DNA from: Methylophilales bacterium
GTDB lineage: Bacteria > Pseudomonadota > Gammaproteobacteria > Burkholderiales > Methylophilaceae
NCBI GenBank assembly: GCA_019823025.1
Contig: CP081940.1
Span: 310,001-374,000, forward strand
Length of the DNA: 64,000 nucleotides
Direction of reading: 5' to 3'
Positions 30,043-32,891 of the stretch are shown piece after piece (position 1 is the first letter of the stretch; each line of letters opens with the position of its first letter). A program made the translations under genes and the position numbers. Below the pieces are notes generated by a model that worked only from the letters and a program-made list of their open reading frames with translations, was not told the DNA's origin and did not search any database.

Positions 30043-31212
30043 TTATTTAATATCTGCTTTTATATCATCAATATCCTCAAGGCCAACTGCAATTCTTATG
30101 AGGTTGTCAGTAATTCCTGCGAGATCTCTTTGGTCTTGATTTAACCTTGAATGCGTTGTTGTTGCGGGGTGAGTTATCGTAGATCTGGTATCACCTAAAT
30201 TTGCTGTTATTGATAATAATTTGGTGTTATTAATTAAACTCCATGCCTCTGATTTTCCACCCTTGACCTTGAATGAGACGATACCGCCACCAGTAGTTTG
30301 TTGTTTTTTTACTAATTCAAACTGAGGATGTGAATCCAAACCAGGATAGTAAACATGTTCAACATTTTTATTTTGTTCTAACCAAACCGCTAATTTATTT
30401 GCATTACTTGAATGGGCATCCATTCTTATCTTAAGCGTTTCAAGCCCTTTTAAAAAAACCCATGCATTAAAAGGGCTCATTGATGTCCCACCCGACCTTA
30501 AAAAACCCCTTACTTTTTTCATAAGATAACTATCACCTAAAACAGCCCCTCCCAGGCATCTGCCTTGTCCATCAAGATACTTGGTTGCTGAATGGATTAT
30601 TATATCTGCTCCGAATCTAGTGGGAATTTGATGAGCCGGGGTGCAAAAACAATTATCTACAACCAATAAACTTTTATTTTCATGGGCTAGGTCTGCTAAA
30701 AATTGGATATCACATACTTCCATGAGAGGATTCGAAGGAGTTTCAACAAAGAAAAGTTTTGTATTTTTCTTTAATGAATTCTGCCACTCATTTTTACTTG
30801 AAAGAGAAACGTAACTAACCTCCAGTCCCCATTCAGATAAAATATTATCGAATAACTTAACCGTGGTACCGAATACACTTCTAGAGACAATTACATGGTC
30901 TCCCGATTTACATAAACTCATGATGCATGACAAAATTGCTGACATCCCCGTTGAGGTAGCAACACATTCCTCAGCTTCCTCAAGGACAGCCAGCCTATCT
31001 TCAAACATCTTAACTGAGGGATTAGTAAATCTAGAATAAACATTACCTGTTTCTTGATTCAAAAATCTTTCAGCGGCCTGTTCAGCACTTTCGAAAATAA
31101 AACTTGAGGTTAAATAAAGAGATTCAGAATGTTCGCCCTGGCTTGAACGTATTGTCCCAGCTCTGACGGCATTTGTTTCAAATTTACTACTTCGTGATTT
31201 TTTTTTATTCAT
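30043..31212 (-). CDS. metZ: O-succinylhomoserine sulfhydrylase
   Basis: A 389-residue PLP enzyme forming homocysteine from an acylated homoserine and sulfide. The N-terminus FETNAVRAGTIRSSQGEHSESLYLTSSF is characteristic of MetZ, the PLP lysine is in IHSATKYLDGQGRCLGGAV near residue 207, and VYSRFTNPSVKMFEDRLA and THPATTTHSRL are family sites. It is clearly distinct from the two MetY-type genes at 5.5-8.1 kb, so the genome keeps both enzyme types. Translation is very likely controlled by a SAM-II riboswitch whose 3' strand contains the Shine-Dalgarno AAGGA, 7 bases before the ATG. It follows purF, as in other Betaproteobacteria. Confidence 0.93.
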   Translation of the reverse strand: MNKKKSRSSKFETNAVRAGTIRSSQGEHSESLYLTSSFIFESAEQAAERFLNQETGNVYSRFTNPSVKMFEDRLAVLEEAEECVATSTGMSAILSCIMSLCKSGDHVIVSRSVFGTTVKLFDNILSEWGLEVSYVSLSSKNEWQNSLKKNTKLFFVETPSNPLMEVCDIQFLADLAHENKSLLVVDNCFCTPAHQIPTRFGADIIIHSATKYLDGQGRCLGGAVLGDSYLMKKVRGFLRSGGTSMSPFNAWVFLKGLETLKIRMDAHSSNANKLAVWLEQNKNVEHVYYPGLDSHPQFELVKKQQTTGGGIVSFKVKGGKSEAWSLINNTKLLSITANLGDTRSTITHPATTTHSRLNQDQRDLAGITDNLIRIAVGLEDIDDIKADIK

Positions 31213-31217
31213 TAGCT

Positions 31218-31275
31218 TCCTTTTTAGCTTCTTTTTTTAGTATCGGGTGGAGCAAGTTGGACTAAATTCACCCAA
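31218..31275 (-). ncRNA. SAM-II riboswitch in the metZ leader
   Basis: On the minus strand, a P1 stem UUGGGUG/CACCCGA closes a loop that begins GAAUUUAGUCC and continues AACUUGCU. After the stem come GAUA, an A-rich linker and AGCUAAAAAGGA. Loop bases CC, UU and GC(U) can pair with GG, AA and (A)GC of that 3' strand, the H-type pseudoknot of SAM-II, and the conserved U-rich loop start and the UUGC and GCUAAAAAGG elements of the known class are all present. The pairing GG belongs to the AAGGA Shine-Dalgarno of metZ, so bound S-adenosylmethionine would block translation. The match was made by eye from memory of the class. Confidence 0.88.
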
Positions 31276-31318
31276 AATAACTTAAATTAACTTAAAATTA
31301 TTTACTTTATCTCTATAA

Positions 31319-31348
31319 ATTATACAGCCTTACAAAACACAATAGCAA
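31319..31348 (-). promoter_or_regulatory. Probable sigma-70 promoter of metZ
   Basis: On the minus strand TTGCTA (31343-31348) and a perfect TATAAT (31319-31324) are separated by 18 bases. The start of transcription would fall near 31312, about 37 bases before the SAM-II aptamer, giving a leader of about 100 bases. It means metZ is not only expressed from the purF transcript. Confidence 0.65.
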
Positions 31349-31355
31349 GGTGTTC

Positions 31356-32891
31356 TTATGCAGGCTCTTCCTCTTCAGATGTTGGATCAAGAATTAAATC
31401 AAGTTGAGATGTACTTTTTGATGGCTCATTCAAATTTTTATCTGACCTTAGCATTTCGATTCTATTAAGATAGGCATCATCAATATCATTAGTAACATAT
31501 TTCCCATCAAAACATGAGCAATCAAAGTCTTCAATTATATTTCCCTCTTGGAGAATGTTTCTCTTAAGCTCCTCAAGATCTTGGTAAATTAGAGCATCGG
31601 CTCCAATCTCTTTGCAAATTTGCTCATCATCTTTATTAAAAGCTACCAGCTCGTCTCGAGATGGCATATCAATCCCGTATACGTTAGGATATCTTACTGG
31701 TGGAGCAGCAGATGCAAAAAATACATTTTTTGCCCCAGCATCCCTAGCCATTTGAATTATCTCCCTTGATGTAGTCCCGCGAACAATTGAATCATCTATC
31801 AAAAGCACATTTTTGTCTTTAAACTCAACTTTAATTGGATTAAGTTTCTGTCTGACAGATTTTTTTCTTAATTCTTGACCTGGCATAATGAAAGTTCGTC
31901 CAATATATCTATTTTTAATGAATCCCTCTCTAAATTCAGCGTTAAGCACGAGTGCTACTTCATGTGCGCTTGGCCTGCTTGTATCTGGGATGGGTATCAC
32001 AACGTCTATGTCAAGATCTGCCCATTCACTCTTAATTTTTTTAGCAAGTGACCTGCCCATATTTAATCTTGTTTGGTAGACCGATATATTATCAATCATA
32101 GAGTCCGGACGCGCTAAGTAAACATATTCGAATATACAAGGTGTTTTCTTGACCACATCACAACAAATTTTTGAATAAAAATTTCCATCGAGGTCAATAA
32201 AAATTGCTTCTCCAGGCTCTACATCTCTGAGTAATTTAAACCCTAAAATATCAAGCGCGACTGTTTCAGAGGCAACAACATATTCTGGACCATCTTCAGA
32301 CTGCTTTATTCCAATAACTAACGGTCTAATTCCATGAGGATCTCTAAAGGCAAGCAGCCCGAAGTTATTTATCATTGAAACTACAGCGTAAGCCCCTTTA
32401 CATCTCTTATACACAGAGCTAACAGAATCAAAAATAATATCTGACGTTAATACATTTTTTTTTGTTGATTTTTCAATAGCATCGGCTAAAACATTTAGCA
32501 ACACCTCTGAATCCGAGTTTGTATTGATATGCCTTAAATCTTGTTTAAACATATCACCCTTCAGCTTTTCAGAATTAGTCAAATTTCCATTATGCCCAAG
32601 GACTAAGCCGTACGGTGAGTTCACATAAAATGGTTGCGCTTCTGCAGCAGAGGAAGATCCTGCTGTGGGATACCTAACATGTCCAATGCCAATATTTCCT
32701 GATAAATGCCTCATATGTCTCGTATGAAAAACATCTTTAACGAGGCCATTATTTTTGTACATTTTAATTCGACCATTATCACATGTCGCTATGCCGGCAG
32801 CATCTTGGCCTCTATGTTGAAGGACTAATAATCCATCATAGAGCATCTGATTTACAGGGCTATTTGAAACTATTCCAATTATCCCGCACAT
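31356..32891 (-). CDS. purF: Amidophosphoribosyltransferase
   Basis: A 511-residue enzyme starting purine synthesis by moving glutamine-derived ammonia to PRPP. The catalytic nucleophile is Cys2 (MCGIIGIV) of the class II glutamine amidotransferase domain, with LQHRGQDAAGI and HNGNLTNSEKL further on. The PRPP motif NVLLIDDSIVRGTTSREI lies near residues 364-381. It has an acidic C-terminal tail (TSEEEEPA). It follows cvpA by 11 bases, the standard cvpA-purF order. A weak hairpin at its end overlaps the metZ promoter. Confidence 0.97.
   Translation of the reverse strand: MCGIIGIVSNSPVNQMLYDGLLVLQHRGQDAAGIATCDNGRIKMYKNNGLVKDVFHTRHMRHLSGNIGIGHVRYPTAGSSSAAEAQPFYVNSPYGLVLGHNGNLTNSEKLKGDMFKQDLRHINTNSDSEVLLNVLADAIEKSTKKNVLTSDIIFDSVSSVYKRCKGAYAVVSMINNFGLLAFRDPHGIRPLVIGIKQSEDGPEYVVASETVALDILGFKLLRDVEPGEAIFIDLDGNFYSKICCDVVKKTPCIFEYVYLARPDSMIDNISVYQTRLNMGRSLAKKIKSEWADLDIDVVIPIPDTSRPSAHEVALVLNAEFREGFIKNRYIGRTFIMPGQELRKKSVRQKLNPIKVEFKDKNVLLIDDSIVRGTTSREIIQMARDAGAKNVFFASAAPPVRYPNVYGIDMPSRDELVAFNKDDEQICKEIGADALIYQDLEELKRNILQEGNIIEDFDCSCFDGKYVTNDIDDAYLNRIEMLRSDKNLNEPSKSTSQLDLILDPTSEEEEPA

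Follow-up and report, generated by a model that had tools for sequence, protein, structure and literature searches.

The leader of metZ in a Methylophilales genome probably carries a translational OFF riboswitch for S-adenosylmethionine (SAM) of the SAM-II/SAM-V superfamily, its nearest kin being a SAM-V-like branch that occurs in Betaproteobacteria; we put the chance of this reading at roughly three in four. The sequence, its homology and conservation, the covariation in its relatives, the overlap with the Shine-Dalgarno and the tandem contexts in which relatives occur were observed; SAM binding, switching and the direction of switching are what we infer.

The metZ leader and its predicted riboswitch

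The window, by which we mean the whole stretch of 64,000 nucleotides that was analysed, comes from a methylotroph with a small genome of 1.34 Mb in a single contig. Judged by metZ, its closest named relatives, at 95 and 77% identity, are isolates of the Methylophilaceae known from single cells or metagenomes; we take this group of isolates to be OM43, a label given by us and not computed. The initial annotation, made from the letters alone, had described a SAM-riboswitch-like pseudoknot with putative translational control of metZ in a genome of this kind, and the nearest named relatives and the metZ identity support that description. The features of the locus are collected in Table 1; purF is located upstream of metZ.

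Table 1. Features of the metZ locus (window positions)
Feature	Position	Strand	Basis
metZ, O-succinylhomoserine sulfhydrylase, 389 aa, regulated gene	30043..31212	-	ORF; NCBIfam TIGR01325 549.5 bits, cut-off 510.05
SAM-V-like riboswitch (predicted), full extent	31215..31283	-	match of hold-out model R1, model positions 1-70 of 70, 48.8 bits
GGA, P2a 3' strand and part of the Shine-Dalgarno, 5 bases 5' of ATG	31218..31220	-	sequence
GAAGCUAAA, P2 3' side	31223..31231	-	GCUAAA invariant across 37 aligned relatives; P2 pairs counted
Joint at the place of the P3 hairpin of relatives; no P3 in the window copy	31232..31242	-	broken P3 pairs in R1 alignment; none found by the parse
P1 3' strand CACCCGA	31243..31249	-	sequence; P1 covariation across 37 relatives
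UUGCUC, pseudoknot P2 5' side	31250..31255	-	UUGC invariant across 37 aligned relatives
UCC, P2a 5' strand (anti-Shine-Dalgarno)	31259..31261	-	CC/GG pair intact in 91.9% of cells
Loop 1 UUUA, presumed third strand of the triplex	31263..31266	-	sequence; role by analogy with SAM-V (available text of PMC6061858)
P1 5' strand UUGGGUG	31269..31275	-	sequence
Promoter-like TTGCTA-18-TATAAT	31319..31348	-	not above shuffles on its own

A closed P1, a U-rich start of the loop, a CC...UUGCU strand and a 3' strand able to pair with it had all been claimed for the minus strand, and all are there. P1 consists of seven pairs (31275-31269 with 31243-31249), one being U-G, and is followed by UUU in loop 1 (31266-31264), CC (31260-31259) and UUGCU (31255-31251). 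The 3' strand of the element, GAAGCUAAAAAGGA, occupies 31231-31218 and includes AGCUAAAAAGG at 31229-31219. The P2 pairs are 31253-31227, 31252-31228 and 31251-31229, then 31250-31231 beyond a bulged A; P2 of the window copy is weakened, with an unpaired base or C-A mismatch. The paired GG lies, as had also been proposed, within the Shine-Dalgarno of metZ, the ATG of which is at 31212. Ordinary folding produced P1, with an energy of -12.8 kcal/mol and a z of -1.71; among 200 shuffles, 13 were equally good. The promoter TTGCTA-N18-TATAAT named earlier is present at 31348-31319 but is weak evidence when taken alone, because shuffles of the region yield 0.8 such sites on average. A terminator-like site was sought in 31190-31420 and none was found.

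If the element works as predicted, plentiful SAM would be held in a triplex in which the loop 1 UUU joins the P2 pseudoknot (UUGCU with AGCUAA), and the bound SAM would stabilise the short P2a helix between UCC (31261-31259) and GGA (31220-31218). P2a would then hide the Shine-Dalgarno and stop the synthesis of MetZ, and without SAM the GGA would be free and metZ translated. In the published SAM-V model, as given in the available text of PMC6061858, SAM in the triplex likewise stabilises P2a and conceals the Shine-Dalgarno.

Covariance models and class assignment

A search of the whole window with Rfam returned 0 families at or over their cut-offs. Under a relaxed search, SAM_alpha (RF00521) matched the element over the full model length at 14.4 bits (E 1.9 in 901 bases), against gathering cut-offs of 36 bits for SAM_alpha/SAM-II and 41 bits for SAM_V (RF01826); this match ranks second among 12 weak ones in the genome, and SAM_V, with E allowed up to 5, did not match the window copy. 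On some relatives of the kind collected in our model R1, described below, SAM_V reached 27-33 bits, all below 41, with best scores of 33.4 in the order and 32.6 in the genus, and it aligned end to end, P3 included, with two genus elements. A scan of 13 loci of the order with E allowed up to 1 placed SAM_V on the element in only four (29.1-33.4 bits), and in one it gave SAM_alpha at 24.1 instead. Six of the seven genus SAM_V matches examined are elements; the remaining one (L167) lies in coding-like sequence and was taken as chance. The covariance check against the Rfam SAM-II and SAM-V models, which the initial annotation had named as able to refute it, gave no above-threshold match, so as far as Rfam goes the proposal falls; the relatives rescue the riboswitch but not its SAM-II label.

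We built R1 from 11 translational elements, with the clade of the window excluded. As a hold-out it matched the window copy at 48.8 bits with an E of 1.4e-7 over 113 kb (1.7e-6 across the whole genome), values that are rough, given a short calibration and a warning from the tool itself; the runner-up in the window scored 16.0 bits. The SAM-V-like branch is defined here by R1, and this significant match places the window copy in it. In the genus, 13 of 31 genomes yielded a total of 22 R1 matches with an E of 0.1 or better; the training rows account for 11 of these, and two are broken copies without GCUAAA. In the order, 19 of 399 genomes yielded 25 matches with an E of 0.01 or better, a level at which about 4 genomes are expected by chance; 21 of the matches are outside the genome of the window. 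A further model, R3, made from 37 elements including that of the window, had matches in 17 of the 187 family genomes and, at the level of the class, in 2 of 369.

The counterpart, R2, was trained on 73 terminator-type SAM-II leaders, excluding the window clade (L009, L089-L094), the tandem loci (L010, L095, L097, L098), L119, the false parse L065, the duplicate L120, the misparsed L148 and L158 with its GCAAAA core. We regard R2 as a SAM-II model because L224, which is outside the training set, scores 73.7 bits with it where Rfam SAM_alpha passes its cut-off (45.4). Run over 23 sources, R2 matched the first element of each of the four tandem leaders, at 37-49 bits, and six leaders without evident terminator, at 25-38 bits; with E allowed up to 10 it gave nothing at the window copy. 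In the order, 291 of 399 genomes had R2 matches with an E of 0.001 or better, and the window's own genome had none. Eight of these loci were read: five precede metZ-like ORFs, one a MetH-like and one a MetK-like ORF (by eye), and one is a tandem. The leaders ahead of the MetH-like and MetK-like ORFs, L213 and L217, are themselves of the SAM-II type (by eye).

The element therefore most likely represents a translational SAM OFF switch of the SAM-V-like branch and not the SAM-II type common in the order, since R1 finds the window copy as a hold-out and R2 does not. The SAM-II class first assigned to it is not supported by these scores: 14.4 of the required 36 bits with SAM_alpha, silence of R2, and grouping with SAM-V-like relatives by R1. 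The class is less certain than the assignment as a riboswitch, and the border between SAM-II and SAM-V is not sharp, because R1 and R2 weakly match each other's elements (R1 four SAM-II-type leaders at 21-25 bits, R2 two SAM-V-like elements at 20.0 and 16.5 bits). By its parts, the window copy has the P1 and the pseudoknot with UUGC and GCUAAA of SAM-II, which are common to SAM-V too, and the short P2a including the Shine-Dalgarno of SAM-V; the P3 hairpin of SAM-V, which the nearest relatives beyond its clade do have, is missing from it. The element probably senses SAM and belongs to a SAM-V-like branch whose scores lie under the usual family cut-offs; more generally, it points to the existence of such a branch beneath present thresholds. 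The presence of SAM-II in such a genome had been thought worth noting; the prevalence found with R2 shows it to be ordinary in the order, and SAM-II is mentioned in Beta- and Gammaproteobacteria in the available text of PMC2704228 and PMC2258182.

Conservation and covariation

Across the six genomes of the window clade, invariant columns number 48 of 58 in the element and 14 of 62 in the adjoining spacer ahead of P1. Invariance is concentrated from P1 to CACCC (27 of 29 columns) and in AAGCUAAAAAGG (12 of 12), with 9 of 17 in the joint. That the window holds a decayed copy, a former SAM switch that has ceased to bind its ligand, would fit the loss of P3, the weakened P2 and the occurrence of a broken copy without the GCUAAA strand elsewhere in the genome (G000:1008323-1008380), but the persistence of those two blocks while the spacer drifts makes decay improbable.

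UUGC and GCUAAA do not vary across the 37 elements, an invariance partly imposed, in 17 genus rows, by the search pattern that found them. Paired cells amount to 91.1%. P1 and P2 covary, with 60 doubly changed cells against 18.2 (sd 4.3) in shuffles, none of 500 being as high, and the covariation score of 0.360 compares with at most 0.107 when the structure is slid; the numbers of doubly changed pairs (5) and further pair types (16) were not above shuffles. The P2 pairing in the matches of R1 is partly selected, because P2 was in the structure of R1, where P1 was not. In the relatives the outer pair of P1 is GC in 19, AU in 9 and other in 9, and the inner pair UA in 16, GC in 10, CG in 4, UG in one and other in 5. 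These counts rest on the alignment, in which P3 is shifted and hence uncounted; the automatic parse of the 37 rows is wrong for L226 and L230. The SAM-II-type leaders covary too, with 29 doubly changed cells against 10.3.

metZ leaders in the family and their history

Of the 187 family genomes, 173 gave a metZ match, and we read 70 of these leaders, namely the 30 best matches and 40 picked by hand. Fifty have a SAM-II-type element of the form GCGCY-GAUUUGA...CAGCUUGC...GGCGC...GCUAAAGCG (GCAAAA in one), as a rule followed by a terminator (by eye); in eight this element stands without evident terminator, in four it is followed by a terminator and then by a second, translational element, and in six, which are the window and its clade, the translational element is alone. 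The two others showed no element by reading and parse. A SAM-II-type or SAM-V-like element is thus visible in 68 of the 70. With this count, the hold-out score of R1 and the conservation in the clade against it, a chance resemblance in an AT-rich leader holding no regulatory RNA is hardly credible, even though the Rfam score is under the cut-off and not the best in the genome. A parse of 80 metZ loci from named genomes gave 25 of the terminator type, one of the window type and one tandem, the 53 with none or (one) a false parse being no proof of absence. One SAM-II leader without terminator, L118, folded no better than its shuffles. With a threshold of E 0.5, RF00521 matched 137 of the 187 family genomes, 2 of them over the cut-off; these weak matches were set aside as a mixture of real leaders and chance, 4 of 14 control genomes also matching. 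In L119 (G159:C29), positions 34-96 and 136-199 hold two successive SAM-II-like elements (17.6 and 70.2 bits with R2), a possible tandem, of which the second exceeds the Rfam SAM_alpha cut-off.

The metZ tree has 28 rows, 20 from the genus and 8 from other family members, and is drawn with a midpoint root that leaves those 8 on the far side. The window clade (6) has a support of 100/100 and the tandem clade (4) of 99/98, and the two are sisters (97/95). Rows with SAM-II without evident terminator come next (85/85, unstarred), and six terminator-only genus rows lie outside these. The second metZ elements of the tandem clade have a mean identity of 0.81, up to 0.91, with the island copies of the genus; the window clade has 0.70 with the second metZ elements, 0.67 with the island copies and 0.59 with the elements of other families. 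The tree suggests that the SAM-V-like element may have been gained behind a SAM-II terminator element before the clades split, and that the clade of the window would then have lost the SAM-II element and P3; with the tandem clade as sister, gain followed by loss is the simplest reading.

The metZ element could instead be a SAM-II riboswitch proper, if the usual SAM-II element of metZ had lost its terminator or doubled in place and become translational. Its pseudoknot core is identical in kind, most of the 70 family leaders examined have a SAM-II-type element ahead of metZ, R1 and R2 cross-match, and the available texts describe both translational SAM-II (PMC6061858) and SAM-II/SAM-II tandems of mixed platforms (PMC9481103). 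We nevertheless consider this unlikely, though the least so of the alternatives: R2 is silent at E up to 10, SAM_alpha stays at 14.4 bits, both types occur side by side in the sister clade, and the second type is found in other families and in islands too. The silence of R2 likewise speaks against a line of descent leading directly from the local SAM-II terminator element to the window copy. On the SAM-V-like reading, the riboswitch control of one gene has been rebuilt within one genus, which has SAM-II with terminator, SAM-II without evident terminator, a SAM-II/SAM-V-like tandem and SAM-V-like alone.

Relation to known systems

As described in the available text of PMC6061858 and PMC5069961, SAM-V (RF01826; SAR11 bhmT, mmuM and metY) resembles our element in its H-type pseudoknot, its UUG...CUAAA core, its two-pair P2a on the Shine-Dalgarno and its translational action. 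The window copy differs in lacking P3, in staying under the Rfam cut-off with no SAM_V match at E up to 5, and in its host, a betaproteobacterium, where SAM-V is known from marine Alphaproteobacteria and Bacteroidetes. With SAM-II (RF00521) the element shares the pseudoknot architecture and core, and the metX SAM-II of the crystal structure is translational too (available text of PMC6061858); it differs in its score (14.4 vs 36 bits), in being unreported by R2, and in that local SAM-II is usually linked to a terminator.

The available part of Leyn 2014 (PMC4239095) places SAM_alpha in Rhizobiales and Rhodobacterales only and describes as new the metXZ element, which has a pseudoknot and precedes metX or metZ in Betaproteobacteria, among them three Methylophilales, where it is at metZ. 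That element has a terminator and, equated by its description, matches our SAM-II-type leaders rather than the window copy; we infer that metXZ and these leaders are the same. Bi-mechanism tandems, in which a translational aptamer follows a terminator-type one, are reported in the available text of PMC9481103 as 149 SAM-II/SAM-V, 44 SAM-II doublets (some mixed) and 2 SAM-II after SAM-I/IV; in the window the translational aptamer is alone. The words Burkholderia and betaproteobacteri are absent from the available main text of that paper, and a literature search, mostly without subscription papers, found no report of this metZ element. For the OM43 strain H5P1 the available text of PMC9004378 reports only one cobalamin riboswitch; relatives of its kind may have a SAM-controlled metZ after all.

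Tandem arrangements, ligand and island copies

Outside the genus, 25 loci with SAM-V-like elements (27 elements) were fetched, and 12 of them have another SAM riboswitch just upstream on the same strand. It is SAM-II by R2 in L224, L233, L237, L238, L243, L244 and L245, and SAM-I/IV, directly upstream, in L227, L230, L235 and L236 (over the Rfam cut-off) and in L232 (just under, 39.8 of 41.1). The other 13 loci gave no upstream SAM riboswitch at the settings used, which for L242 and L246 were a scan with R2 only. Since SAM-V-like elements are paired with SAM-II or SAM-I/IV in 12 of 25 loci, SAM is supported as the ligand. The ORFs downstream vary: L236 has a Cys/Met PLP enzyme, L227 a carbonic anhydrase-like protein (as, by eye, does L230) and L222 a DUF3293 protein, and several are small ORFs that match nothing in Pfam. 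A riboswitch of the same fold for another ligand such as SAH would suit the several relatives that precede genes not known as methionine genes, but the tandems with known SAM classes and the placement at metZ, a methionine gene, leave it very little room. Such natural pairs of differing SAM aptamers in a single leader offer test material for two-step control. DUF3293 genes stand beside SAM-V-like elements in L222 by Pfam and in L221, L225, L229, L234 and L239 by eye.

The window's genome (G000:C1) has two further SAM-V-like copies outside the window, at 1277578-1277647 and 1277845-1277914 (L161, L174), both in an island, each ahead of a 62-aa ORF and 11-12 kb from an integrase gene that adjoins a tRNA-Arg gene. 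We do not call the island a phage because, in spite of tRNA-Arg and integrase, no phage structural family was found among nine of its proteins. A phage origin of the copies was pursued with one pattern scan of viral contigs and dropped: the sole match was taken as chance because it lies inside an ORF (193 aa, peroxiredoxin-like by eye) with no GCUAAA strand in place. We tentatively propose, at somewhat less than even odds, that the SAM-V-like riboswitch may be a transferable cassette of Betaproteobacteria, borne by islands and set behind older SAM-II or SAM-I/IV switches as a second, translational checkpoint. Where the older switch disappears, the cassette could assume control of the gene, as would have happened to metZ in the window clade.

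In the island of the window's genome, the 81 bases at L161:1414-1494 match the tmRNA model at both its ends, with 57.4 bits against a cut-off of 47; ARAGORN called no tmRNA on L174. Truncated SAM-V-like copies at G000:C1:1008323-1008380 (L201) and G026:C1:37048 (L198) retain P1 and UUGC without GCUAAA, and have tRNA-like sequence near them (by eye).
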